64,000 nucleotides of DNA from Prevotella sp. Lineage in GTDB: Bacteria; Bacteroidota; Bacteroidia; Bacteroidales; Bacteroidaceae. This document shows positions 8,643-64,000 of this stretch, one piece after another. The notes beneath the pieces were generated by a model. It had not been told where the DNA came from. It saw only the letters and a program-made list of their open reading frames with translations, and did no database searches. The stretch spans positions 1-64,000 of the forward strand of contig JAKVJW010000006.1 in NCBI GenBank assembly GCA_022486815.1, read 5' to 3'. Numbering within the stretch: position 1 is the first letter of the stretch; every line of letters begins with the position of its first letter. Position numbers and translations under genes: made by a program.

Positions 8643-8896
8643 GTTGCACACAATAAAATATTTGTGCAAAAAACGGAGGAAAGGGTTTCTTAAAAATGTA
8701 TTTATACCATTTGTGGCATAATGGTAAGAAGAATGAATGTATTATTGCGTTATTTCGGAACTTTATCTTTCATTTTGATAATTTAAACCCTGTTTTTAAT
8801 ACAAATAATCAAAAACTGTTATAATTCTAAACAGAACCTTTTATAGTCTATTTTTCGAAATCAGGAATGTTGCACAAAAATAAAATGAGTGCGCAA
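8643..8896. repeat. Pair of near-identical dyad motifs in a gene-free AT-rich stretch
   Basis: GTTGCACACAATAAAAT (8643-8659) and GTTGCACAAAAATAAAAT (8869-8886) are nearly identical. Each is closed by a complementary arm (TGTGCAA at 8663-8669; GTGCGCAA at 8889-8896), so both can form a stem. The rest of 8574-8965 is AT-rich with no convincing gene. They could be protein-binding sites or remnants of a small repeat. Confidence 0.4.
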
Positions 8897-8965
8897 TGAT
8901 TGAAATATTTTTTACAATTTAATATATCTGTCATAGGTTTTCTTTATAAGATGAAATGTGAAAAG

Positions 8966-9805
8966 TCAATAGATGCCATGAAGATTGAATGTTCTGTTAT
9001 TCCACCAATTGGGTATGGAGCAGTGAGTGATCTGATTATGCTTCTTTAATTTTGCAGCATGTACTATAGTTTGCAAGATGGACCAATTCGCATGGTTGTC
9101 AATGCATGCTGATTTCTGATTTTGGAAAAGGCTTTGTACGATTTTGTATTCACCACAGATATCAATGCCGATGACATGGTTGTGCGTCATGATGGATAAC
9201 AGAGACTGTTGTAATTCCTGCAATGTCAGAGTTCCCTGATCCCAGTTGGTTTCGGCGTATGCAGTGTTCAGCACGTCTTTATCGATCGAAATATAAATCG
9301 GCTCTTTCATTGTAAGTTGTTCTTGCGCTGAAAGCATCTGACGTATTTTCTCTCTGCTGAAAAGGTATACTTTCCTTCGGTATATATTTGGGATTTTTTC
9401 TTCTGTACCTTGTGGTGTACCTATAATAATGACCTGTCTTAGTCTTGGATCTTCATCAATGGCATCTTTTACCCAATCGCCGCAAGATAGTAATCCTGGA
9501 ATTCGGGAAGGCTGCATGTCGGTATGGTGATCAAAGAGAACCAATGAAAACGATTGATTCAATTTCTCCATCCAGAATTTCGTAATATAATGATAATCTC
9601 CATTATCGATAAAATGTATTCCTTCGGCGGAGTAGGGGGCAATGATATTCTTGATTTCTTTGCTTGCCTCTTGACTGCAATAGCAATCTGTTCCATTAAG
9701 GTGAGCGCAATTCAGATGAATGAAGTCCGGATTGTTGGCAAAAGGTTCATATTCATAGGCCCCAGAGAAATTCATGATAATAATAGGTTCCCTTTCAACT
9801 TTCAT
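8966..9805 (-). CDS. Arginase/agmatinase-superfamily ureohydrolase-like protein
   Basis: Metal-site motifs of the arginase fold are recognisable: 'FDHHTDMQP' (usually DAHxD), 'SIDKDVLN' (SxDxDxxDP) and 'IGIDICGEY' near the C-terminus, with 'DNGDYHY' where GGDH normally occurs. The aspartates and one histidine needed for a binuclear metal centre are therefore present, but several motifs differ from true arginases, so another C-N hydrolase activity is possible. I use the ATG at 9805 (279 aa), preceded by AGAAGAAGA on the coding strand; the track start at 9835 is a TTG. It is apparently monocistronic. Confidence 0.75.
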   Translation of the reverse strand: MKVEREPIIIMNFSGAYEYEPFANNPDFIHLNCAHLNGTDCYCSQEASKEIKNIIAPYSAEGIHFIDNGDYHYITKFWMEKLNQSFSLVLFDHHTDMQPSRIPGLLSCGDWVKDAIDEDPRLRQVIIIGTPQGTEEKIPNIYRRKVYLFSREKIRQMLSAQEQLTMKEPIYISIDKDVLNTAYAETNWDQGTLTLQELQQSLLSIMTHNHVIGIDICGEYKIVQSLFQNQKSACIDNHANWSILQTIVHAAKLKKHNQITHCSIPNWWNNRTFNLHGIY

Positions 9806-9919
9806 TCTTCTTCTATTTATTTTACTTATAGGCAATTCTTGTTTTATTTGTCCGACTTTTCACTATTATGACTTTTGCCTTCAAATGAAGAAAGTAGAAT
9901 AGTGAGAGGAAATAACGGC

Positions 9920-10726
9920 TTATTCCGGTTTGATCTGAATGTCTTTTTTGGCTACCTTAGCTTTAAGTATCCCCATATAATGAGGAGCAATTTCCAAGTC
10001 ATCATAAATGAAAATAATACTATCCTTTCCAATTATGAAGTTGTCCGGTATGTAGACTGAATCATCAGAAAACACATACAGACTATCATGCAACTGTTTG
10101 AAATTTTTCACGTTCAATTGCTTGATGAGGCTCTTAACGATTTCTTGTCTTGTTTTGCTCGGAGAAATCTGCTTTAAGAGTTTGTCTTTGGTGATGATCC
10201 CACCATTTTTCTTATCTATATTGATAGTAATGTTCGATGATATACCATGGGCACCACCTGTATAGACATATTTCTTAAATGTAAGGCAGGCATATTTTCC
10301 GTTGTTGATAACTTCGCCGTCTGATAGAAATTCATAGTTGCATGACATGGTTGTCTTGTCTTTTGCATAGATAGGGCCACACGTCTTTCTATATTCTTTG
10401 ATATATTCCTGTACGAATTTGCTGACGACTTCCTTTGGTGGCAAATTCTCCAGTGAATAAGTGCTTACCAAATCATTTCTGAAAGCATTGGAGGAAAGGA
10501 TATAATTGTTGATTTGCTTTACACTGTCTCCTTTGGCATAGGTATATATGAGGTTGATTTTAGCCTTAGGTGATGCGGAATCACCCGGAACTAAATCTAC
10601 TGTCGTATCTATTGCTACCTTATCAAACGAGACAAGAGTAGAGATGGCTTTATGGTGACAAGCACAGAAGGTCATGCTGATACCTGTTATTATAAGGCTT
10701 ATTCTTATCAGATGGATTTTCCTCAT
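9920..10726 (-). CDS. Lipoprotein with DUF4163/DUF3298-like (RsiV-type) domain
   Basis: A lipoprotein signal peptide ends at a lipobox ('MTFCACHHK', Cys about 23). The mature part contains 'CNYEFLSDGEVINNGKYACLTFKKYVYTGGAHG' and 'FIIGKDSIIFIYDDLEIAPHYMGI'. These segments are typical of the paired DUF4163 and DUF3298 domains also found in the lysozyme-binding anti-sigma factor RsiV. It is expected to be anchored in the envelope. There is no adjacent sigma factor here, so an anti-sigma role is not supported. It lies 36 bp downstream of the flavin reductase gene and may be co-transcribed. Confidence 0.75.
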   Translation of the reverse strand: MRKIHLIRISLIITGISMTFCACHHKAISTLVSFDKVAIDTTVDLVPGDSASPKAKINLIYTYAKGDSVKQINNYILSSNAFRNDLVSTYSLENLPPKEVVSKFVQEYIKEYRKTCGPIYAKDKTTMSCNYEFLSDGEVINNGKYACLTFKKYVYTGGAHGISSNITINIDKKNGGIITKDKLLKQISPSKTRQEIVKSLIKQLNVKNFKQLHDSLYVFSDDSVYIPDNFIIGKDSIIFIYDDLEIAPHYMGILKAKVAKKDIQIKPE

Positions 10727-10762
10727 TTTGATGATAGTCTGATTGCCGGTAATAAAGATGTA

Positions 10763-11329
10763 TTATTTGATTCGTTTGCCGTCAACAAATGCGTTGCCGA
10801 CTTTTTCACCGACGACACGATAGGCTGCAATGGAATCGTCCAGAAGGATAGGCTGGAGTTTGTCTATATCGATCTGACCTTTGCTATTGAGAACCTTATC
10901 ATCCGCAATGATATTGACCACTTCACCAACGACGCGGGCACCACCTTCTCCTTCATCTTTCATATCGATTACTTTGCATTCGAGCGTGACAGGGAGGTCC
11001 TCGAATACAGGGGCATCAACATAGGAAGACTTGGTAACTTTCCATCCCGTCTTTTTTATTTTGTCTGATTCTTTTCTTCCGGACACCAATCCGACAAAAT
11101 CTGCCTGTGCCTCGTTTTCCCGATTGGCATAGGCCAACGTGAAGGCTTTCTTGATCCTCAGATTATCTGTGGTTTGATGTGAACCTATATTAAGGGCGAC
11201 ATGCTTAGGCCCGCACTGTCCACCCCAGGCTACATTCATTGCATCCGGTACACCTGCTGAGTCGTAAGTACCGACAATTAACACTGGTAATGGTGTGAAA
11301 AACATCTTAGTTCCTAAATTCTTTTTCAT
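10763..11329 (-). CDS. Flavin reductase-like FMN-binding protein
   Basis: The 188-aa protein has the flavin reductase (split-barrel) layout: 'PLPVLIVGTYDSAGVPDAMNVAWGGQCGPKHVALNIGSHQTTDNL', then 'FTLAYANRENEAQADFVGLVSG' and 'DLPVTLECKVIDM...VVGEVVNII'. Such proteins bind FMN and transfer electrons from NAD(P)H to flavin, or act as small-molecule reductases. It is cytoplasmic with no signal peptide, normal in length, and has a good ATG at 11329. Confidence 0.85.
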   Translation of the reverse strand: MKKNLGTKMFFTPLPVLIVGTYDSAGVPDAMNVAWGGQCGPKHVALNIGSHQTTDNLRIKKAFTLAYANRENEAQADFVGLVSGRKESDKIKKTGWKVTKSSYVDAPVFEDLPVTLECKVIDMKDEGEGGARVVGEVVNIIADDKVLNSKGQIDIDKLQPILLDDSIAAYRVVGEKVGNAFVDGKRIK

Positions 11330-11443
11330 CTTATTTAGATTTTAGTTTTTTGCGCAATTGCGAAAAGCATCTGACACAAAGATAATAAAGAATTCATATT
11401 CTTGTTAATATGTCAACTGAATTTTAAGAAAAGATAACCATAG

Positions 11444-11593
11444 TTATTGAGATAGGTGTGTTGCCCCAGCTATCATGCTCTCATACGTAAGAGCATATAT
11501 ATCAACTTTGACAGCCCTGTCTGGAATTGATACCGTAACAGTACCAACATTGGCTATGACGCCTTTAGGTGAAAAAAGATTGTGATCGGTTTG
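11444..11593 (-). pseudogene. Orphan 49-codon open frame, possible gene-end remnant
   Basis: On the minus strand an open frame without ATG runs from just after a TAA (11596-11594) to a TAA at 11446-11444. It encodes 'NLFSPKGVIANVGTVTVSIP...' and later 'VDIYALTYESMIAGA', with protein-like composition. It lies between the tRNA-Arg terminator and the flavin reductase gene. I do not recognise the family. It may be the tail of a deleted gene or chance. The rest of 11330-11640 shows only a short hairpin (ATGCTCT/AGAGCAT). Confidence 0.25.
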
Positions 11594-11611
11594 TTACTTA
11601 TTATAAAAATG

Positions 11612-11640
11612 GCTAACTATTTTATAATTAAGTAGTTAGC
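11612..11640 (-). terminator. Terminator of tRNA-Arg(TCT)
   Basis: GCTAACTA (11612-11619) pairs with TAGTTAGC (11633-11640), and on the minus strand the stem is followed by ATTTTTATAA. It begins 12 nt beyond the mature tRNA 3' end. Confidence 0.65.
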
Positions 11641-11651
11641 TGTACTAAAAG

Positions 11652-11726
11652 TGATTCCGCTGGGATTCGAACCCAGGACCCACGGCTTAGAAGGCCGTTG
11701 CTCTAATCCAACTGAGCTACGGAACC
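11652..11726 (-). tRNA. tRNA-Arg (anticodon TCT)
   Basis: The minus strand folds as a cloverleaf: acceptor GGTTCCG/CGGAATC with discriminator A, D-arm GCTC, anticodon stem ACGGC/GCCGT with loop CTTCTAA (anticodon TCT), and T-loop GGTTCGAATC. CCA is not encoded. It reads AGA codons, and AGG by wobble. The overlapping ORF 'IPLGFEPRTHGLEGRCSNPTELR' is a common tRNA translation artefact. Confidence 0.95.
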
Positions 11727-11745
11727 GATTTGTTAATTCGCGATG

Positions 11746-11777
11746 CAAATGTACAGCTTTTTTAGTTTATTACCAAA
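11746..11777 (-). promoter_or_regulatory. Promoter of tRNA-Arg(TCT)
   Basis: On the minus strand, -33 TTTG (11774-11777), a 20-nt spacer and -7 TACATTTG (11746-11753) match the consensus exactly. The tRNA begins 19 nt downstream. The stretch 11778-11904 shows nothing else. Confidence 0.8.
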
Positions 11778-11904
11778 CTTTTCTATCATTATTTTGGGGT
11801 GATTGCAGAGAAGGAAAGGGAAGGAGAGAGCTGTCTCGCTTTTTGCTCTAATGATATTCAGTAGTCATTTATGGAGAGATTAACAAGTCTTTTCAAGATG
11901 ATAA

Positions 11905-54501: not shown

Positions 54502-55998
54502 TTACAGTGTTACTCCATTCTTGAAAATAGCGATTCCCTGATAATCATTTATTTCATTTTTACACTGTTCGCCGCTTGCAATGGCAATGACTTTATCGAT
54601 GAACTGAGTTGCCAATGTTGCCATGTCCGTACCTTCGGTAAGAATTCCTGCGTTAAAGTCTAACCAATTTGGCTTATTTTGATAAAGTGTACTGTTAGAA
54701 GCAATTTTTATAGTAGGAACAAAAGTCCCGAAAGGCGTACCTCTTCCCGTAGTAAAGAGAACCATCTGACAACCGGATGCGGCCAGTGCCGTTGCTGCAA
54801 CCAGGTCGTTGCCAGGTGCAGACAGAAGGTTGAGCCCGTTGTTTTGTAAACGCTCACCGTACTTGAGCACTCCACTTATCAAAGCTTTACCACACTTCTG
54901 GGTACATCCTAAAGCTTTGTCCTCCAAGGTAGAAATACCTCCTGCTTTATTTCCAGGTGACGGGTTTTCACCTACAGGTTGGCCATTGGAAAGGTAATAT
55001 TCTTTGAAGCCGTTGATCATGGCTACAGTCTTATTGAAAAGCTCTGTCGTTTTGCAGCGATTCATCAGTATTGTTTCTGCACCGAACATTTCAGGTACTT
55101 CCGTCAGAATTGTTGTGCCTCCCTGAGCTACAAGATAATCAGAAAATTCGCCTACGAGAGGATTTGCTGTTATACCACTGAAGCCATCTGATCCACCACA
55201 TTTCAAACCAATGCGTAATTTGCTTATAGGCATTTCAGTACGTTTATCCTGTCGTGCTTTATGATAAAGTTGTCGGAGAATATTCATACCTTCTTCTATT
55301 TCGTCACCTTTTACCTGTTGAGTGACTAAGAGTTTGATTCGATCATGGTCATAGTCTCCCAATGTTTCCATGAATGGACCAGGCTGATTGTTTTCACATC
55401 CAAGGGAGAGAACCAATACGCCTCCAGCATTAGGGTGAAGGCAGAGGTCGTGGAGAATCTTACGTGTGTTTTCATGATCATCTCCAAGCTGGGAGCAACC
55501 ATAGTTGTGAGTCCATGCATGAATAGCATCAATGCCCTCAAGATGTGTTTCTTCTTTCAATTGTTGTGCGAGGCGCTGTGCAATTCCGTTTACACATCCT
55601 ACCGTGGGCACAATCCAAATCTCGTTACGTGTACCCACTTCACCATTATGACGCAAATATCCTTGAAAGGTCCGATGATCTTGTGACATTTCTACGGAGT
55701 CCTTTACCGGTTTATAAGTGTATTCAAGTGTCCCGGAAAGATTAGTCTTCAAGTTATATTCATTGATCCATTGTCCCTTTTTCAGGTCAGTTTTGGCATG
55801 TCCGATGGGATAACCATATTTTATAATACTGGTACCGCTGGACACATCTTTAATCAGAACCTTATGTCCTGCCGGAGTATCTTGCAGTAATGTAATGGCT
55901 TGACCGTCTATCTCAAAAGTTTCTCCTTTTTTGAAAGGTCGTAGACAAACCACTACGTTGTCAGCAGAGTTGATTTTAATAAAGTTTGATAGTTTCAT
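54502..55998 (-). CDS. uxaA: Altronate dehydratase (UxaA family)
   Basis: The N-terminal SAF domain (about 1-95; 'DNVVVCLRPFKKGETFEIDGQAITLLQDTPAGHKVLIKDV') is followed by the UxaA catalytic domain: 'GYLRHNGEVGTRNEIWIVPTVGCVN', 'CSQLGDDHENT', 'LKCGGSDGFSGITANPLVG' and 'VLFTTGRGTPFGTFVPTIKIASNS'. It dehydrates D-altronate to 2-keto-3-deoxygluconate in galacturonate breakdown. The product is the substrate of KdgK, encoded divergently. It starts 18 bp after the regulator gene. Confidence 0.93.
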   Translation of the reverse strand: MKLSNFIKINSADNVVVCLRPFKKGETFEIDGQAITLLQDTPAGHKVLIKDVSSGTSIIKYGYPIGHAKTDLKKGQWINEYNLKTNLSGTLEYTYKPVKDSVEMSQDHRTFQGYLRHNGEVGTRNEIWIVPTVGCVNGIAQRLAQQLKEETHLEGIDAIHAWTHNYGCSQLGDDHENTRKILHDLCLHPNAGGVLVLSLGCENNQPGPFMETLGDYDHDRIKLLVTQQVKGDEIEEGMNILRQLYHKARQDKRTEMPISKLRIGLKCGGSDGFSGITANPLVGEFSDYLVAQGGTTILTEVPEMFGAETILMNRCKTTELFNKTVAMINGFKEYYLSNGQPVGENPSPGNKAGGISTLEDKALGCTQKCGKALISGVLKYGERLQNNGLNLLSAPGNDLVAATALAASGCQMVLFTTGRGTPFGTFVPTIKIASNSTLYQNKPNWLDFNAGILTEGTDMATLATQFIDKVIAIASGEQCKNEINDYQGIAIFKNGVTL

Positions 55999-56016
55999 TT
56001 TGTAGTTTGTTTTTTA

Positions 56017-57081
56017 TTATAGTTGCGTTCTTTTATAAAAATCCACATTCTCCTTGGTCAAAAGTTCGATAGGCATGTAGTTGACAGGCTGAACTTTTTT
56101 CTTGAGTACTGTAGCTCTGAAGAGAGCATCAACACAGTAGAATCCCTGCATATAGGCATGTTGGGCAATCAGGAAGGAGATGCTTCCCAGTTTGAGGCAT
56201 CTGGCATTCTTTCCTACCATATCATATCCCATTATTTGTATGTCACGTCTATTAGTCGCCAATAGAAAATCCCCGACGATATGAGCTTTTGAACTTAATG
56301 TGATACAATGGTGTATATTGGGATGGTTGGTGAAAAACTTTTCCAGTATTTGATGGTATTCTTTTCGTGTATTGCTCATAGGAAGTTGCAATTCGGTGAT
56401 ACTGATATTCGGATAGTGATCATGCATATAATGTCTGAATCCTACTTCTCGATTATCTTGTTGTTTACTGACTACTTGACCGTTTTCAGTCAATTTCATC
56501 AGCATAATTTCGGATTCCTTAAAGGCAATGAGCATTAGCATTTTAGCAGCGAAATATCCGCTACTGAAAGAATCCTGACCGTAGAAAGCCAATGGCTTGA
56601 GATCGGGCATGTAGGAATCAAGGAATATAAATGGAATGTTATTTTCATGCAACTTATCCGTAAAAAGACGTGTGACGTCGAGTTTGGTAGGAACGATGAT
56701 TACTCCGTCTGGTTTTTTTTCAAAAACCCGCTCACATTGATCAGTGAAAGAAGCATCATCATAACGATTATAGTGTACAATCTCGACATTGATATGGAAA
56801 TCGCGCCGAAGTTCTTCGCATTTCTTAGCTCCGTCTTCTATTTCTGCCCAATAGGCCTCATATTCGTGTTCGGGGATCAGTAAGAAAAACGCATATTCTT
56901 TGTTGTAGGCTAATGCACTGGCATACATATTAGGCTGATAATTCATCTCTTTCAAAGCCTGTTCAACTTTTATTCTCGCCGGTTTCGATACATTAGGCCG
57001 ATCGTGTAACACTCTGTCTACTGTGCCTACAGAAACTCCAGCTCTTTCGGCGATATCCTTGATTCTGATTTTTACGGACAT
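56017..57081 (-). CDS. LacI-family regulator of the hexuronate locus
   Basis: The N-terminal helix-turn-helix and hinge 'IRIKDIAERAGVSVGTVDRVLHDRPNVSKPARIKVEQALKEMNYQPNMYASALA' is a classical LacI DNA-binding domain. The remainder is a periplasmic-binding-protein-like effector domain ('FVLLIPEHEYEAYWAEIEDGAKKCEEL', 'KPDGVIIVPTK'). It is first in the lacI-uxaA transcript. Two perfect palindromes cover its promoter, so autoregulation and control of uxaA are likely. The inducer is probably a hexuronate or KDG. Confidence 0.92.
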   Translation of the reverse strand: MSVKIRIKDIAERAGVSVGTVDRVLHDRPNVSKPARIKVEQALKEMNYQPNMYASALAYNKEYAFFLLIPEHEYEAYWAEIEDGAKKCEELRRDFHINVEIVHYNRYDDASFTDQCERVFEKKPDGVIIVPTKLDVTRLFTDKLHENNIPFIFLDSYMPDLKPLAFYGQDSFSSGYFAAKMLMLIAFKESEIMLMKLTENGQVVSKQQDNREVGFRHYMHDHYPNISITELQLPMSNTRKEYHQILEKFFTNHPNIHHCITLSSKAHIVGDFLLATNRRDIQIMGYDMVGKNARCLKLGSISFLIAQHAYMQGFYCVDALFRATVLKKKVQPVNYMPIELLTKENVDFYKRTQL

Positions 57082-57168
57082 GATAATAGTAAATGAGTTA
57101 ATATTTTGGCAAAATGGTTGTTTTAAGTATCATATGAAAATAATATCCTGCCAATGGGTTTAAAAACC

Positions 57169-57184
57169 GTGTACAAATGTACAC
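57169..57184. promoter_or_regulatory. Palindromic operator overlapping the -7 box
   Basis: GTGTACA-AA-TGTACAC is a perfect 16-bp palindrome. It contains the minus-strand -7 box TACATTTG of the lacI promoter, so bound repressor would block initiation. Confidence 0.75.
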
Positions 57185-57205
57185 ATTTCATTTTAATTGT
57201 GCGAA
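57174..57205 (-). promoter_or_regulatory. lacI-uxaA promoter
   Basis: The minus strand reads TTCG (57202-57205, -33 with one mismatch), a 20-nt spacer and TACATTTG (57174-57181, -7). The leader to the ATG at 57081 would be about 85 nt. Confidence 0.65.
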
Positions 57206-57212
57206 CGCACAA
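57197..57212. promoter_or_regulatory. Palindromic operator centred on the -33 box
   Basis: TTGTGCG-AA-CGCACAA is a perfect 16-bp palindrome, centred 28 bp from the first. It has a CG-centred half-site style common to LacI-family operators and lies over the -33 position. Confidence 0.75.
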
Positions 57213-57253
57213 CCTGAAAATTTAAAAAAATGTGTTTTTTACGATTATGTTTA

Positions 57254-57446
57254 CCCGTTGGTGGAATTAATTTTCATCTAATATCACCACTAAATGGTAT
57301 GCTCATTTCCATAGTACTGGAAGGCACATTTCCATAGCACGGTAATTTCGTATTATGTGGTAATTTAAATAATAAACAGCGGAAATGATTGAAAATTAGA
57401 TATATATATACGAATTGTTGTTTTACTTCTTGCTTCATGTTTAATT
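57254..57446. repeat. Dispersed intergenic repeat, copy 3
   Basis: The left end CCCGTTGGTGGAATTAATTTTCATCTA (57254-57280) matches the copy at 40684 in 21 of 27 positions, and the right part (57341-57446) is co-linear with 40927-41029. The core has only two diverged units (CATTTCCATAGTACTGGAAGG / CATTTCCATAGCACGGTAA). The rest of 57082-57662 holds the lacI promoter and operators and the kdgK promoter. Confidence 0.6.
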
Positions 57447-57574
57447 ACTTCAATCGGTTATATTTATAAAGTAGTGAAGGTTTGCGGGAAAAACATATTT
57501 TTGAAATACTAATTGGGTTATGTGTTAGAATTTTTATCGTTCATCCTTAAAAAGGAAAGATTTTTTTATTTTTA

Positions 57575-57606
57575 TTTCGAAATATAAGAATTATTCATTA
57601 TATTTG
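57575..57606 (+). promoter_or_regulatory. kdgK-kdgA promoter
   Basis: TTTC (57575-57578), a 20-nt spacer and TATATTTG (57599-57606) fit the consensus. The ATG of kdgK lies 56 nt downstream. No copy of the lacI palindromes is seen here. Confidence 0.65.
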
Positions 57607-57662
57607 CCCTATGAGAACAAACATACTCAAGATCTAAGTAAACTATCAACAAAAATTAGAAA

Positions 57663-58685
57663 ATGGCTAAAGTTGTTACATTAGGCGAGATTATGCTCCG
57701 CCTGTCACCGGAAGCTAATGACCGCTTTATTCAGACGGATACGTTCCGTATTATCCCAGGTGGGGGTGAAGCAAATGTTTCGGTCAGTCTGGCAAATTAT
57801 GGGCATGAGACCTATTTCGTGACGGAACTTCCGAAACATGAAATTGGACAGATTGCAGTCAATGCGTTGCGTCGTTATGGAGTTCATACTGATTTTATTG
57901 TCCGCGGAGGAGATAGAGTAGGACTTTATTATGCCGAAACCGGAGCTTCTATGCGTCCTTCAAAAGTTATTTATGACCGTGCACATAGTGCTATAGCTGA
58001 GGCAGAACCTTCCGATTTTGATTTTGATAAAATCATGGAAGGGGCACAATGGTTTCATTGGACAGGTATTACTCCTGCTATCAGTGATAAGGCTGCAAAA
58101 CTGACACAGTTGGCTTGTGAGGCTGCAAAGCGTCATGGAGTGATGGTCTCTGTGGACCTTAACTTCCGTAAGAAGTTATGGACTTCAGAAAAGGCGATCT
58201 CTGTGATGCGTCCTTTGATGAAATACGTGGATGTATGTATCGGTAATGAAGAGGATGCTCAGTTGTGTCTGGGATTTAAGCCGGATGCTGATGTGGAAGC
58301 TGGAAAAACGGAAGCAAAAGGTTATTATCATATATTTGAAGGTATGATGAAAGAATTTGGTTTCAAATATGTTGTTTCGACACTTCGTGAATCCATATCT
58401 GCCAGCCATAATGGGTGGAAAGCCCTTATTTATGATGGCAAGGAGTTTTATGAGAGTAAGCATTATGACATTATGCCGATCATTGATCGTGTAGGTGGCG
58501 GTGACTCTTTCGCAGGTGGTCTCATTCATGGTTTGTTAACTAAACCTAATCCTCATGATGCCCTGGAGTTTGCTGTTGCTGCATCAGCCTTAAAGCATAC
58601 TATTCCAGGTGATTTCAACCTCGTAAGTGCAGAAGAAGTAGAAAGTCTGGCCGGAGGAAATGCCAGTGGGCGTGTGCAACGTTGA
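57663..58685 (+). CDS. kdgK: 2-keto-3-deoxygluconate kinase (PfkB family)
   Basis: The N-terminal 'VVTLGEIMLRLSPEANDRFIQTDTFRIIPGGGEANVSVSLANYGHET' and the C-terminal PfkB signature 'IIDRVGGGDSFAGGLIHGLL' (catalytic Asp in GGGD) identify a ribokinase-type sugar kinase of the KdgK subgroup. It phosphorylates KDG to KDPG, which KdgA then splits. Length 340 aa is normal. It leads the two-gene kdgK-kdgA unit. Confidence 0.92.
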   Translation: MAKVVTLGEIMLRLSPEANDRFIQTDTFRIIPGGGEANVSVSLANYGHETYFVTELPKHEIGQIAVNALRRYGVHTDFIVRGGDRVGLYYAETGASMRPSKVIYDRAHSAIAEAEPSDFDFDKIMEGAQWFHWTGITPAISDKAAKLTQLACEAAKRHGVMVSVDLNFRKKLWTSEKAISVMRPLMKYVDVCIGNEEDAQLCLGFKPDADVEAGKTEAKGYYHIFEGMMKEFGFKYVVSTLRESISASHNGWKALIYDGKEFYESKHYDIMPIIDRVGGGDSFAGGLIHGLLTKPNPHDALEFAVAASALKHTIPGDFNLVSAEEVESLAGGNASGRVQR

Positions 58686-58700
58686 TTAATCTTAAGTGAT

Positions 58701-58721
58701 GGCTGTCCAATGGGGATAGCT
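58701..58721 (+). other. Weak hairpin between kdgK and kdgA
   Basis: GGCTGTCC (58701-58708) can pair with GGATAGCT (58714-58721) using two G-U pairs, followed by GTCCTTTTATATT. It could attenuate or process the transcript. Confidence 0.3.
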
Positions 58722-58762
58722 GTCCTTTTATATTATAAAAATAAAAGAAAGATAGGAAAGAT

Positions 58763-59434
58763 ATGTCAAGATTCAATAAAATGCAAGTGTTGACAGCTAT
58801 GGGGAAGACAGGTATGGTTCCTGTATTTTTCAATAGTGATGTAGAAATCTGCAAACATGTGGTTAAAGCTTGTTACGATGGTGGAGTAAGGGTATTTGAA
58901 TTTACTAACCGGGGAGACTTTGCTCATGAGATATTTGGAGAATTGATAAAATGGGCTGCTTCTGAATGTCCGGAATTGATTCTGGGGGCCGGTACTGTAA
59001 TTGATGCACCTACAGCTGCACTTTATATTCAACTTGGTGCTAACTTTATCGTTGGACCTAATTTAAATCCTGAGATTGCACCAGTTTGTAATCGTCGTCT
59101 GGTTCCTTATGCTCCGGGTTGTGGTTCAGTCACGGAGGTTTCAACCGCTCAGTCTCTGGGATGTGATGTGACTAAGGTTTTTCCAGCTGGTAATGTAGGC
59201 GGACCATCTTTCGTGAAAAATATTCTTGGTCCTCTTCGTTGGAGCAATATCATGGTGACAGGTGCTGTAGCACCAGATAAAGAAAATCTTACTGCATGGG
59301 TGAAAGCCGGTGTGTTCTGTGTAGGTATGGGATCAAAACTTTTCCCAAAAGATGATATAGCCGCAGGAAACTGGAAGGCTATTGCTCAAAGGTGTGTTCA
59401 GGCTTTGGCATATATACAAGATGCCCGTTCTTGA
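58763..59434 (+). CDS. kdgA: KDPG/KHG aldolase
   Basis: The 223-aa class I aldolase contains 'GGVRVFEFTNRGDFA' (Glu), 'ELILGAGTVIDAPTAALYIQLGANFIVGPNLNPEIAPVCNRRLVPYAPGCGSVTEVSTAQSLGCDVTKVFPAGNVGGPSFVKNILGPLRWSNIMVTGAV', including the Schiff-base Lys in 'VTKVFPA'. It splits 2-keto-3-deoxy-6-phosphogluconate into pyruvate and glyceraldehyde 3-phosphate, closing the hexuronate route from UxaA and KdgK. Confidence 0.93.
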   Translation: MSRFNKMQVLTAMGKTGMVPVFFNSDVEICKHVVKACYDGGVRVFEFTNRGDFAHEIFGELIKWAASECPELILGAGTVIDAPTAALYIQLGANFIVGPNLNPEIAPVCNRRLVPYAPGCGSVTEVSTAQSLGCDVTKVFPAGNVGGPSFVKNILGPLRWSNIMVTGAVAPDKENLTAWVKAGVFCVGMGSKLFPKDDIAAGNWKAIAQRCVQALAYIQDARS

Positions 59435-59516: not shown

Positions 59517-62500
59517 TTGAAGGATATTTATGAATTTATAAGACCTATTATAAGAACCTCATTTTTTTTATTGGTTCTTGTATTTTCAGCATGTACTCCC
59601 TCTCATCAAAATGAGGTAGATAAGCTGAATGATAAAGCATATTCTTTTCATTATAGGAATATTGACTCGACAAAAATATTCGCCCAAAAGGCATTGGCCC
59701 TTTCTTCAAATTATGATGCCGGTCAGGCAGAAGCTCTTAATAATCTAGCTTTTGTAAGTTTGGTAAGAATGGACTACAAGCAGGCTTCCCTGCTTCTTGA
59801 TAATGCTATCTCTGCCAGTGATAATCAAATAGAATTGTTGGTTGCATATATCCAGCAGATGCGGTTATGTCAACGTCAATCACAAAATAAAAATTTCTAT
59901 GATTGTCAGGAACGGGCATTAAATTGTCTGCATCGTATAGATGAAAGTAGTACGGATTTATCTGATCGGGAACGCTTAAGAATGGTATATGCTCGTTCCG
60001 AATTCAATATCGTCAGTTCGACCTATTACTATTATACAGGACAAAATCATTTATTTATCAAAGCGCTGGAGCGTATTGATGTTAATGAATGCGAAGTTGA
60101 TACGGCCCAATATTTAAAATATCTCTATAATATCGGAGAAGGTGGGGCTATAACTCATGGATCCTCAGAGCAAATTGCCGAAACGGAATTGAACTATCTG
60201 ATCCGTTGTTTTTATATTGCTACAGTTTTCCGAAGTCCATATTGGATAGCCAATTCTCTAGAGGCTATCAGTGAGCACATGCAGGATCCACGAATATACA
60301 AGTTTTTGATTAGAAATAATCAGGCGGCTATAGAACTGGTGAATACTGATAATATGCCTTATCGACTCTTGGCAGGAAATCTGGCACAGCGTTCATTGCA
60401 ACTTTTTATACGCTATGGAGATATTTATCAAATTGCCGGAGCTTATCGTACACTGGGACGAAATTATTGGGCTATTGGGGATTATCGTTCAGCTTTGATC
60501 TGCCTGAATCATGCCTTGCGTGATAAAAGGATATTTCAGGCACCGGATATGGTGGCGTCTATCCGTGAACAATTGAGTCTGGCATATTCTGCAGTCAATG
60601 ATAAGCAGGCTAGTGATTATAATCGGAATATCTATCTTGATTTGCAGGAGCAGACCAGGCAGGACCGGCTTATGGAGGCTAGAGCATCTGAACTGGATAA
60701 GAATGCTACCCAACTGAATGCGATGATTCTGGCTGTTGTCCTGATGATTATATTCTTTATAGGTCTTCTCTTTGTCTTTGACTGGATGCGGCGGAAAAGT
60801 GATAGAGGAAATTCTGCTGACAAACTGCTGCAACCATTATGGCAATGGAAGAAGGAGACAGACTTGTATATCAATAATTTAAGTGATAAATATGAGGAGA
60901 TACAGGAAGAAACACGTATTACACAAATCCATATTCTCAAAAGTAAACAGAAAAATTTAGAACAACGGGCTAAGGTTCAATTGGTTATCAGTATTATTCC
61001 TTTTATTGATCGGATTATAAATGAGATACATAGGCTTCAAGAAGGTAAGGATAATGCGGAGATGCGAAAATTGCGTTATCAATATATCAGTGAACTTACG
61101 AATCAGATTAATCAGGATAATACTGTCCTTACCCGTTGGATTCAACTCCGCCAAGGTCAGTTAAGTCTGCACATTGAGAGTTTCCCGGTTGAGACTATTT
61201 TTGAAGTTGTCAGAAAGGGGAATATGGCTTTCTTGTTACGCGGCATAACATTTAATGTGGAAAAGACCGATGCGATAGTGAAAGCAGATCGTACGCTCAC
61301 TCTGTTTATGGTTAATACGATGGCAGATAATGCGCGGAGATATGTTCAGAGAGGTGGAACTGTAACTATTTCAGCCTGTGAAGGTGTGGATTATGTTGAA
61401 ATCAGTGTTTCTGATACAGGAAGAGGCATGACTCAGGATCAGGTGGAACATATTTTTGATCATAAAGCAATCTTAGGTGATGAGCAGGCTGCCCCAAACG
61501 TGGAAAAAAGACATAGTCATGGATTTGGATTACTGAACTGTAAAGGAATTATTGAGAAATATAAGAAGACAAGTAGTCTATTTCGTGTTTGTAGTATTTC
61601 TGCTAAAAGTGAATTAGGGAAAGGTTCCCGTTTTTCATTCCGGTTACCTAAGGGGATATCACATCTGAGCATGTTATTCTTTCCTGTCTTTATTTTTTTG
61701 TTTCTTCATACAGGAATGATTTCTGCAGCGAATAATTTTCATTCAAAAGGGAAGCAGGCTGTTCTCTCCTCCAAGTCCGTTTCTCATGCTTCACCTCATA
61801 GATTGAGAGTCTTATTATCCCATAAAGCCTCTCAATATGCTGATAGTGTGTATTTCTCTAATATTTATGGTCATTATCGTAAAGCCTTGGTTTTTGCAGA
61901 TAGCACACGTCATTATTTAAATGCTGTTTATCAGCTGTTGGTTCCTCATGGTAAGGTATTAATGAAGCCTATGGGAGGGGAGTTGGTTCCTCCTGAAATA
62001 CAATGGTTTCGGGATAATCTGGATATTAACTATATTGTGATTCTTGATATGAGGAATGAAAGTGCGATAGCTTGTCTGGCTTTGCATGACTGGCCTCGAT
62101 ATACTTATAATAATACGGTATACACACAACTCTTCCGTGAAGTTTCTGCTGATCAGTCACTTGATGATTATGTACAGACCATGCAGAAATCTGAAAATTC
62201 CAAGACTGTGGCCATTGTCCTTCTTGTCTTATTACTCCTGTCTATCTTTCCAGCTTACTATTTTCTTTATTATCGCCATAGAGTGTTTTATCGATTCTGT
62301 GTGGAACGTATTGAAGATATCAATCAGATTTTGCTTAGCAATCTTCCTGACCGGGAAAAGCTTCATGAGATTAATCAACTTTGGGATGAACGGGTAAAGA
62401 AAGGGATACAATTCCATTCTTTCGGATTCCATTCCAATGATGTCATAAATCAATTGAATCAACTGGTAGAACAGATATGCACAGCATTACGCAAAAGTAT

Positions 62501-63113
62501 ATCGGTGTATCATAACCATCAGTTAAATATTGAGTTGGCTCAGGATGAACTTTCCCGTGCCCATTATGAAGATGCCCGTTTACATGTATCTAATGCTGTT
62601 TTGGATAATTGTCTTAGTACCCTTAAGCATGAAACCATGTATTATCCATCACGTATCAAACAACTTATTGATGGTTCAGACCGGAATCTTGAGGTCATTA
62701 GTGAACTGGCAGGTTATTATAAAGAACTTTATTCTCTTCTGTCAGCTCAAGCACTAAGACAGGTTGTTGGGCAGATCAGATTGGATCCTGATCTCTTGGA
62801 TTATCTTTTCGAAATTCTTCAGAAGAAAAGTGGAGAGAAGAAAATCATACCGGAGGTTCGTGATAAGGGTGAATCCTATGTCGTTATTCGTATTCCTCTG
62901 GAAAAAATGAATCTTACAGAAGTTGAATGTCGGCAACTTTTTACTCCGTTGACAAAAGATCTTGATTTTCTCCTTTGTAAACAGATTGTAAGAGAAGTAG
63001 GAAACTTGACAGACCTTAGAAGTTGCGGTATTAAAGCAATACCAAATCCGGTAATGGCCGGAATAATCATAGAAATGGTTTTACCTAAAAAGATATGGAA
63101 AAATTTAAAGTAA
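59517..63113 (+). CDS. DUF5112/DUF5113-type sensor histidine kinase with two kinase-like modules
   Basis: Track numbering is used below. A lipobox-like signal ('LVFSACTPS') is followed by TPR-like helical repeats (about 40-400), a membrane helix (about 408-428), a coiled coil and a GHKL ATPase with N-box 'VNTMADNARRY' (N612), G1 'DTGRGM' (D640) and G2 'HGFGLLNCKG' (about 675). This module has no obvious H-box. A second hydrophobic segment (about 725-745) and another helix (about 902-925) follow. Then come the H-box-like 'STLKHETMYYPSRI' (His about 1045) and a degenerate ATPase ending '...IIIEMVLPK'. The start is uncertain: the track TTG (59496) lies within a terminator hairpin, so I use the TTG at 59517. 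The response-regulator gene overlaps the 3' end by 19 nt. Confidence 0.8.
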   Translation: MKDIYEFIRPIIRTSFFLLVLVFSACTPSHQNEVDKLNDKAYSFHYRNIDSTKIFAQKALALSSNYDAGQAEALNNLAFVSLVRMDYKQASLLLDNAISASDNQIELLVAYIQQMRLCQRQSQNKNFYDCQERALNCLHRIDESSTDLSDRERLRMVYARSEFNIVSSTYYYYTGQNHLFIKALERIDVNECEVDTAQYLKYLYNIGEGGAITHGSSEQIAETELNYLIRCFYIATVFRSPYWIANSLEAISEHMQDPRIYKFLIRNNQAAIELVNTDNMPYRLLAGNLAQRSLQLFIRYGDIYQIAGAYRTLGRNYWAIGDYRSALICLNHALRDKRIFQAPDMVASIREQLSLAYSAVNDKQASDYNRNIYLDLQEQTRQDRLMEARASELDKNATQLNAMILAVVLMIIFFIGLLFVFDWMRRKSDRGNSADKLLQPLWQWKKETDLYINNLSDKYEEIQEETRITQIHILKSKQKNLEQRAKVQLVISIIPFIDRIINEIHRLQEGKDNAEMRKLRYQYISELTNQINQDNTVLTRWIQLRQGQLSLHIESFPVETIFEVVRKGNMAFLLRGITFNVEKTDAIVKADRTLTLFMVNTMADNARRYVQRGGTVTISACEGVDYVEISVSDTGRGMTQDQVEHIFDHKAILGDEQAAPNVEKRHSHGFGLLNCKGIIEKYKKTSSLFRVCSISAKSELGKGSRFSFRLPKGISHLSMLFFPVFIFLFLHTGMISAANNFHSKGKQAVLSSKSVSHASPHRLRVLLSHKASQYADSVYFSNIYGHYRKALVFADSTRHYLNAVYQLLVPHGKVLMKPMGGELVPPEIQWFRDNLDINYIVILDMRNESAIACLALHDWPRYTYNNTVYTQLFREVSADQSLDDYVQTMQKSENSKTVAIVLLVLLLLSIFPAYYFLYYRHRVFYRFCVERIEDINQILLSNLPDREKLHEINQLWDERVKKGIQFHSFGFHSNDVINQLNQLVEQICTALRKSISVYHNHQLNIELAQDELSRAHYEDARLHVSNAVLDNCLSTLKHETMYYPSRIKQLIDGSDRNLEVISELAGYYKELYSLLSAQALRQVVGQIRLDPDLLDYLFEILQKKSGEKKIIPEVRDKGESYVVIRIPLEKMNLTEVECRQLFTPLTKDLDFLLCKQIVREVGNLTDLRSCGIKAIPNPVMAGIIIEMVLPKKIWKNLK

Positions 63114-63820
63114 TTATAGTAGAAGATGTGCCTTTGGAACTCAGAGGGACGGAGGGAATCTTTCACAATGATATCCCTGAAGCTCAAATTATAGGAACTG
63201 CTGATAGTGAACCTGTATATTGGAAACTGCTCAAACAACAATTACCTGATCTTATACTGCTTGACCTTGGGCTAGGCGGCAGTACAACTGTCGGTGTTGA
63301 AATTTGCCGGCAAACTAAAGAAATGTACCCGAAAGTGAAGGTTCTTATATTTACCGGTGAGATACTCAATGAAAAATTATGGGTGGATGTTCTTGATGCG
63401 GGATGTGACGGAATCATTCTTAAGAGTGGAGAATTACTTACGCGTGATGATGTCGCTGCTTGTATGTCTGGTAAGAAGATGGTTTTTAATCAACCTATAC
63501 TGGAAAAGATTGTAGATCGCTTTAAAAAAAGTGTTACTCATGAAATAACCCGACAGGAAGCATTGGTGAATTATGAAATAGATGAATATGATGAACGCTT
63601 CCTGAGACACTTGGCTTTAGGTTATACAAAAGAACAGATTACGAATCTTCGTGGAATGCCTTTTGGAGTAAAAAGCCTGGAAAAACGTCAAAATGAATTG
63701 GTACAAAAACTTTTCCCTAATGGAAACGGAGGAGTCAATGTCAATGCGACTCGTCTTGTTGTGCGTGCACTTCAATTGAGAATTATAGATCTTGATGACT
63801 TACATCCTGATGAAGAATGA
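63095..63820 (+). CDS. Response regulator with REC domain and C-terminal output domain
   Basis: The receiver domain is complete: E10/D11, phosphoacceptor D57 ('LILLDLGLGG'), T87 and K110 ('GIILKSGEL'). The C-terminal part (about 150-235), 'YDERFLRHLALGYTKEQITNLRGMPFGVKSLEKRQNELVQKLF', looks like a helix-turn-helix of the LuxR/NarL style and corresponds to the DUF5932-type output found with these kinases. It is probably a DNA-binding regulator. It overlaps the kinase gene by 19 nt, so the pair is translationally coupled. Confidence 0.88.
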   Translation: MEKFKVIIVEDVPLELRGTEGIFHNDIPEAQIIGTADSEPVYWKLLKQQLPDLILLDLGLGGSTTVGVEICRQTKEMYPKVKVLIFTGEILNEKLWVDVLDAGCDGIILKSGELLTRDDVAACMSGKKMVFNQPILEKIVDRFKKSVTHEITRQEALVNYEIDEYDERFLRHLALGYTKEQITNLRGMPFGVKSLEKRQNELVQKLFPNGNGGVNVNATRLVVRALQLRIIDLDDLHPDEE

Positions 63821-64000
63821 GTTATTGTCAAAAGTGAAACGTCCTAAACAATGGAAGAATATAATCGGAAGATTGATCTTTATTTTGATCATCATCCAGA
63901 TGATACTTATTCTTTTGTCATGGCTTCTAACGGCAGCTGATCCTGATAGTCCTGTGCGCTCTTTGCTAAGTAGTGAAGGGATCAGATGGTTTATAGGTAA
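63810..64000 (+). CDS. Start of a probable AbgT-family transporter (partial)
   Basis: From the ATG at 63810, overlapping the regulator stop by 11 nt, the frame stays open to the window edge: 'MKNELLSKVKRPKQWKN', then a membrane helix 'LIFILIIIQMILILLSWLL', then 'DPDSPVRSLLSSEGIRWFIG'. A short basic N-terminus, one helix and 'SLLSSEGIRW' resemble the beginning of AbgT-type (p-aminobenzoyl-glutamate) transporters. The call rests on little sequence. The overlap suggests co-expression with the two-component system. Confidence 0.5.
   Translation, partial: MKNELLSKVKRPKQWKNIIGRLIFILIIIQMILILLSWLLTAADPDSPVRSLLSSEGIRWFIG

Follow-up and report, generated by a model that had tools for sequence, protein, structure and literature searches.

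RESULTS

Organization of the locus

The window that we analysed is a stretch of 64,000 nucleotides from a Prevotella genome. Near its end lies an open reading frame (59496/59517-63113, +) that is uninterrupted and encodes a sensor kinase. Its 3' end is overlapped by the gene of a response regulator (63095-63820), and a third gene of the operon runs off the window. The features are:

59517-63113 (+): kinase gene of the DUF5112/DUF5113 family, 1198 aa from TTG 59517 or 1205 aa from TTG 59496; 114 homologues aligned
59559-59594 (+): lipoprotein-type signal peptide at the N-terminus of half A, lipobox Cys26 at 59592-59594
59616-60407 (+): DUF5112, TPR-like, predicted periplasmic sensor, residues 34-297 (Pfam E 6e-100)
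60414-60776 (+): first DUF5113 copy, a remnant seen as two partial profile matches within the kinase frame
60723-60788 (+): membrane helix TM1, residues 403-424, out-to-in, 20-aa hydrophobic core, about 4 K/R after it and <1 before
60957-61151 (+): DHp1-like helices without phosphoacceptor His, residues 481-545
61164-61652 (+): CA1, intact GHKL ATPase by Pfam and by its N, G1 and G2 residues (114/114), residues 550-712
61329-61331, 61413-61415, 61521-61523 (+): CA1 active-site codons N605, D633 and G669
61656-61727 (+): internal signal-peptide-like segment, residues 714-737, ending GMISA/AN (slash, predicted signal peptidase site)
61821-62276 (+): second DUF5113 copy, predicted periplasmic, residues 769-920 with TM3 included (Pfam E 6e-62)
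62205-62270 (+): membrane helix TM3, residues 897-918, out-to-in, by hydropathy; helix 882-908 in the model
62529-62771 (+): DHp2 with H-box, residues 1005-1085, H1038 at 62628-62630 (114/114)
62778-63110 (+): CA2, degenerate GHKL domain, residues 1088-1198, lacking the N, G1 and G2 motifs, with a fold match to histidine kinases
63095-63820 (+): cognate response regulator, receiver (D57 at 63263-63265) and DUF5932 output domain
63792-64000 (+): third operon gene, shortened AbgT-family protein of 222 aa (PF03806, E 1.6e-10), running off the window (G000:C6:63792-64460, L191)

Residues are counted from TTG 59517; the original prediction had counted from TTG 59496, and its residue numbers are 7 higher. 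Both Pfam assignments of the kinase lie above the gathering score (PF17139, 334 bits; PF17140, 209 bits), and its nearest homologue match is from Prevotella cerevisiae (74% identity). Identity to the window kinase is about 46-74% in Prevotellaceae and 30-41% in Bacteroides-type members. For the alignment (n = 114) we combined the window kinase with 80 Prevotellaceae sequences found by sequence and 33 Bacteroides-type sequences picked by DUF5113 alone; about 125 sequences were read among the 260 genomes that carry the gene.

The lipobox Cys26 is kept in 97% of 101 sequences, and the lipobox pattern was found in 69 of 74 Prevotella members. In the full-length AlphaFold2 model (pLDDT 81) the DUF5112 region is all-helical and mostly above pLDDT 90, CA1 and CA2 form separate domains, and residues 723-758 are of low confidence. 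The first DUF5113 copy, a remnant in the window kinase, is of full length in Bacteroides-type members. A linker lies between TM3 and DHp2. Bacteroides-type kinases (L119-L138) carry about 70-160 extra residues between membrane helix and DHp in both halves; this segment aligns between the halves, is largely lost in Prevotella and may be a sensor domain.

Complementary losses in the two halves

CA1 matches HATPase_c at 598-712 (E 3e-15), and N605, D633, G635, G637, G669 and G671 are each found in 114/114 aligned sequences. The well-formed ATPase that the original prediction had described (as N612, D640 and G676) is hence confirmed at N605, D633 and G669. At the DHp1 position directly before CA1, where the prediction had noted the lack of a phosphoacceptor His, we found no conserved His in the 114 homologues but N, T, S or G instead. 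The invariant P495 of the DHp1 helix sits where an H-box would carry its Pro, and the best-kept His of the DHp1 coil is H472 (91/114).

Half B presents the opposite picture. H1038, which lies in the motif KHETxYYP (KHETMYYPSRI in the window) and corresponds to the predicted His1045, is invariant in all 114 homologues, unlike every other His of the protein; for the 80 Prevotella loci, whose seeds included KHETMYYP, this conservation is partly ascertained. Free of this seed bias are the set selected by DUF5113 and a genome-wide scan with a DNA pattern (see below). The ATPase that follows is degenerate, as had been noted for the window: the N, G1 and G2 motifs are lost across the family. In Bacteroides-type members the positions aligned to the three boxes are mostly E, D-R-E and T/Y, with the N-box Asn replaced by E, A or D in 33/33; in Prevotella these positions have diverged more, and nearly all sequences have lost the G1/G2 glycines. 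The HATPase_c profile still matches CA2 in Bacteroides relatives (E 1e-8 to 1e-6) and gives no match to the window's own CA2. Mean pairwise identity is 0.87 in the H-box block (1026-1047) versus 0.34 in CA2, so H1038 is under strong constraint within a fast-evolving half B.

The fold of this half is nevertheless that of a kinase module. An AlphaFold model of residues 925-1198, built from 81 sequences, shows DHp-like helices and a CA-like alpha/beta domain (pLDDT 86.5), and its best PDB neighbours in Foldseek are histidine kinases such as CpxA (the top match) and KdpD, with low whole-chain TM-scores (~0.3), so that the match to the histidine kinase fold comes mainly through single domains. By HisKA-type criteria, a GHKL ATPase with N, G1 and G2 boxes is present in CA1 only, and the His is absent from the DHp that precedes it. 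Active-site residues in half A only and the His in half B only match the complementary modules of a split histidine kinase. Judged by its sequence, the gene looks like one that encodes duplicated sensor kinase halves degenerated in opposite directions, a split histidine kinase in one open reading frame.

Homology of the halves and one-module relatives

Comparison of half A with half B by hhalign gave E 8.8e-13 for the DHp-CA regions and 6.7e-16 with the linker; DHp1 aligns to DHp2, and the His position is gapped in DHp1. Bacteroides-type members carry two full DUF5113 domains about 1.7-1.9 kb apart in one frame, and in most genomes a half-B profile detects half A of the same protein. One DUF5113 match (in G120) was rejected as a kinase and is a TPR protein.

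Outside the family, both halves are closest to two one-module kinases of another Bacteroidales group at family rank, L164 and L167, which score 71-72 bits against half A and 47-50 bits against half B, level with or ahead of every other histidine kinase scored. The first of them is:

9730-11862 (L164): one-module kinase from another Bacteroidales family, with a DUF5932-type regulator at 8894-9745

L164 resembles the window kinase in having a lipoprotein signal, a helical sensor, a membrane helix, a DHp with a related H-box (CLSIFRHDMSPYI) and a CA domain, and in the regulator beside it, which matches DUF5932 weakly. It differs in that its single module holds both the His and an intact, active-type CA, and in that DUF5113 was not detected. 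In a tree of DHp-CA sequences the halves and L164/L167 form one group against 15 other histidine kinases (support 99/94); within it half A, half B and L164 sit on long branches, and alternative branching orders have p-AU values of 0.5 and 0.4. The family of L164 holds a further kinase in a frame of 1473 aa (L168, G1039:C19:915-1625) with a 37% match to the L164 kinase.

Since the halves are homologous and a cousin of the L164 type keeps both functions in one module, the simple reading of these sequences is that a complete ancestral kinase was duplicated internally, and that copy A then lost its His and copy B its ATP-binding residues, a direction of change that we infer.

The junction between the halves

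The original prediction placed two membrane segments between the modules. One of them, 897-918, looks like a normal membrane helix; the other, 714-737, looks like a signal peptide and not like a plain membrane span. It has 12-13 hydrophobic residues versus 20 in TM1. Its hydrophobicity (best 10-mer/19-mer) is 2.70/1.70, compared with 2.63/1.76 for the N-terminal signal, and is unlike that of TM1 (3.62/3.19) and TM3 (3.76/2.65). Among 81 Prevotella members an AxA motif occurs at the junction in 68, at TM1 in 5 and at TM3 in 1, and AxA followed directly by Q (AxA/Q) in 27, with none at TM1 or TM3. Q after AxA marks signal peptidase I substrates in Bacteroidetes (Q-rule; PMC5837995). In Bacteroides-type members the junction carries instead a lipobox Cys in a single column (32/33, versus 1/81 in Prevotella). 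Clear junction sites are also found in nine genomes from three further genera, eight of them with Q at the predicted +1 position.

The sequence of the junction is only 0.16 identical, yet its pattern of R/K, hydrophobic run and AxA is kept. Across the family the segment shows n-h-c organization with an AxA or lipobox site, more weakly in the window's copy: its site GMISA/AN fits the rule but is less typical than those of relatives, and that of the nearest relative, L004 (MQA/D), is weaker still. Going by these motifs, signal peptidase I probably cuts the junction in Prevotella and others, and signal peptidase II in Bacteroides-type members; a signal anchor that stays uncut would share some of these features. 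As the type of peptidase changes at the same place, the sequences suggest that cutting itself is the conserved property, and because the junction resembles a signal peptide the halves may be separate chains.

In every relative examined the kinase is one open reading frame, save for frameshifts and contig ends, and none was found split at the junction. Candidate two-gene versions were rejected: frameshifts or insertions outside the junction interrupt the frame in G526, G577 and G579, G499 consists of two contig ends, and G527 matched in one piece. Searches of the literature for a bacterial membrane kinase divided by an internal signal peptide returned nothing.

Regulator and neighbouring genes

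In all 100 fetched loci the regulator lies downstream of the kinase and its D57 is invariant. It is probably DNA-binding, since NarL/FixJ-type regulators make up several of its best matches in the library. Its identity to relatives, 76-94% in Prevotellaceae and 67-74% in Bacteroides-type members, is far above that of the kinase.

An AbgT-type gene occupies the third position of the operon in 97 of the 100 loci, and from this arrangement the transporter gene is the first candidate target of the regulator. The protein is of full length (about 485-506 aa) in the Bacteroides-type genome that we opened (L134 5582-7102), and only ~220 aa, with part of the profile kept, in the opened Prevotella genomes (window, L004, L028). 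As the gene is retained in Prevotella, its shortened product may serve a new function.

The region upstream of the kinase (54502-59434) encodes an altronate-dehydratase-like enzyme, a LacI-type regulator, a KDG-kinase-like sugar kinase of the pfkB type and a KDPG/KHG aldolase. Their relatives lie upstream of the kinase in 34 to 57 of the Prevotella loci and in 0 Bacteroides-type loci; being present in only a part of the loci, these sugar-acid genes are not fixed partners of the kinase.

Distribution in the Bacteroidaceae

The DUF5113 gene was found in 260 of 299 Bacteroidaceae genomes. The exact DNA pattern for KHExxYYP, scanned for separately from the collection of loci, has matches in 251 of the 299. 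In nine genomes with the gene but without the exact pattern that we opened, KHET was kept in all nine (KHETLSYP, KHETVWYP, KHETVFYP, KHETMYFP), and the change affects one of the two Tyr positions. In four genera (g144, g148, g149 and g152) both the DUF5113 gene and the H-box pattern are missing from all listed genomes; there the system was lost or never present.

DUF5112 (PF17139), DUF5113 (PF17140) and DUF5932 (PF19355) are catalogued in Pfam as families of unassigned function. The window proteins are plain members of them, and the entries make no mention of a duplication, a split or an internal signal. We found no papers on the three domains in the searchable literature, as far as which shows the two-half kinase system is unstudied.

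DISCUSSION

In this study we describe a kinase whose two halves each lack, across the family, what the other has kept. We propose, with a probability of roughly 0.6, that it is a split kinase that arose by internal duplication, that its precursor is cut in two, and that phosphate passes from CA1 to H1038 to D57. Computation shows the two modules and how they are conserved, their duplication, the losses that complement each other and the likeness of the junction to a signal peptide; cleavage, heterodimer, phosphotransfer and target genes are inferred parts of the proposal. In this scheme a unit of lipoprotein-type sensor, membrane helix, DHp and CA would have been duplicated within one open reading frame. 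Copy A (DUF5112-TM-DHp1-CA1) would have kept the ATPase and lost the phosphoacceptor His, and copy B (DUF5113-TM-DHp2-CA2) would have kept H1038 and lost the ATPase. As copy B would start with a signal peptide of its own, signal peptidase I or II would probably cut there and release two membrane subunits in equal amounts. These would pair through DHp1 and DHp2, with CA1 phosphorylating H1038 in trans and H1038 handing the phosphate to D57 of the adjacent regulator. Taken by itself, the notion of a polyprotein sensor kinase, in which an internal signal (signal peptidase I or II by genus) is cut to give an obligate heterodimeric kinase with kinase and phosphoacceptor apart, appears to us slightly better than an even bet.

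It might also be possible that the chain stays uncut, the junction serving as an anchor and DHp1 and DHp2 forming a pseudo-dimer, either within one molecule or swapped between two, in which CA1 phosphorylates H1038. We consider this unlikely, at odds of about one to four. It would agree with a frame that is never split at the junction, the breaks in relatives being frameshifts or contig ends elsewhere. The balance of charges, too, yields the right topology without any cutting. The length and hydrophobicity of the junction are nevertheless those of a signal peptide, signal peptidase I or II motifs are present in nearly all members, and an anchor would not need the lipobox Cys of the Bacteroides-type kinases.

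Still less probable is it that the halves work in different pathways, CA1 targeting another His while H1038 is fed by another kinase or serves mainly to dephosphorylate the regulator. The link from CA1 to H1038 is a proposed one, and H472, ahead of CA1, is conserved rather well, both of which leave some room for such a division. The halves are fused, though, they are co-inherited with a single regulator and look like one complete kinase of the single-module type, and among the conserved neighbours we recognised neither a second histidine kinase nor an Hpt gene.

Since half B has a signal of its own and looks like a whole lipoprotein or a secreted membrane protein, its translation might in addition begin internally, at the second signal peptide. 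This we regard as very improbable: a conserved start codon at the junction was looked for and rejected, no column near the junction having one in more than 37 of 114 sequences. That CA2 is an active, unusual ATPase that phosphorylates H1038, with CA1 in a regulatory role, is hardly credible, for despite its GHKL-like structure and the HATPase_c matches in some Bacteroides-type members the domain evolves fast, has its N-box Asn replaced in every Bacteroides-type sequence and has mostly lost the G1/G2 glycines.

How does the proposed split kinase relate to known systems? A characterised split histidine kinase is CheA3/CheA4 of Rhodobacter sphaeroides (PMC3591291). As in that pair, kinase domain and phosphoacceptor His of the window kinase would reside on complementary modules, neither of which should autophosphorylate alone. 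CheA3 and CheA4 are, however, of the chemotaxis CheA type and encoded by two genes, whereas the window kinase consists of duplicated HisKA-like membrane sensors in one open reading frame, which are predicted to mature by proteolysis and still carry a pseudo-CA and a pseudo-DHp. TodS/TmoS likewise have two transmitter modules in one polypeptide, but those of TodS are both active autokinases joined by a receiver in a His-Asp-His-Asp relay (PMC4321377); in the window kinase each module lacks half the activity, and no receiver domain was matched by Pfam within its frame. DivL of Caulobacter (PMC4211667) and RcsD (PMC3762810) are similar in being histidine kinase-like proteins that became partners or sensors through partial loss of activity, yet they are encoded by separate genes beside another complete kinase, while here neither half is complete.

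The original prediction had suggested that the halves complement each other in a layout unlike ordinary histidine kinases. The first part is strengthened by a complementary loss fixed throughout the family, by the duplicate nature of the halves and by a one-module relative with both functions. Neither result that would have spoken against the prediction turned up: a conserved His is missing ahead of CA1, and the charge distribution puts both DHp-CA modules inside, where the prediction required them. The second needs to be narrowed: the functional kind, a split histidine kinase, is already known, and what is new is its genetic form, duplicated in one open reading frame with a signal-peptide-like junction.

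Trans-phosphorylation across a kinase dimer was shown classically by mixing an ATP-site mutant with a His mutant. Such a pair of mutants appears here to be fixed as the normal state of one gene in a dominant gut and oral family. As such it would form an obligate heterodimer in nature, in which phosphorylation has a strict direction, and it would illustrate clearly how the copies of a duplication can degenerate in complementary ways within one open reading frame. If the junction is indeed cut, the kinase would be an example of a signalling polyprotein in bacteria whose maturation depends on signal peptidase.
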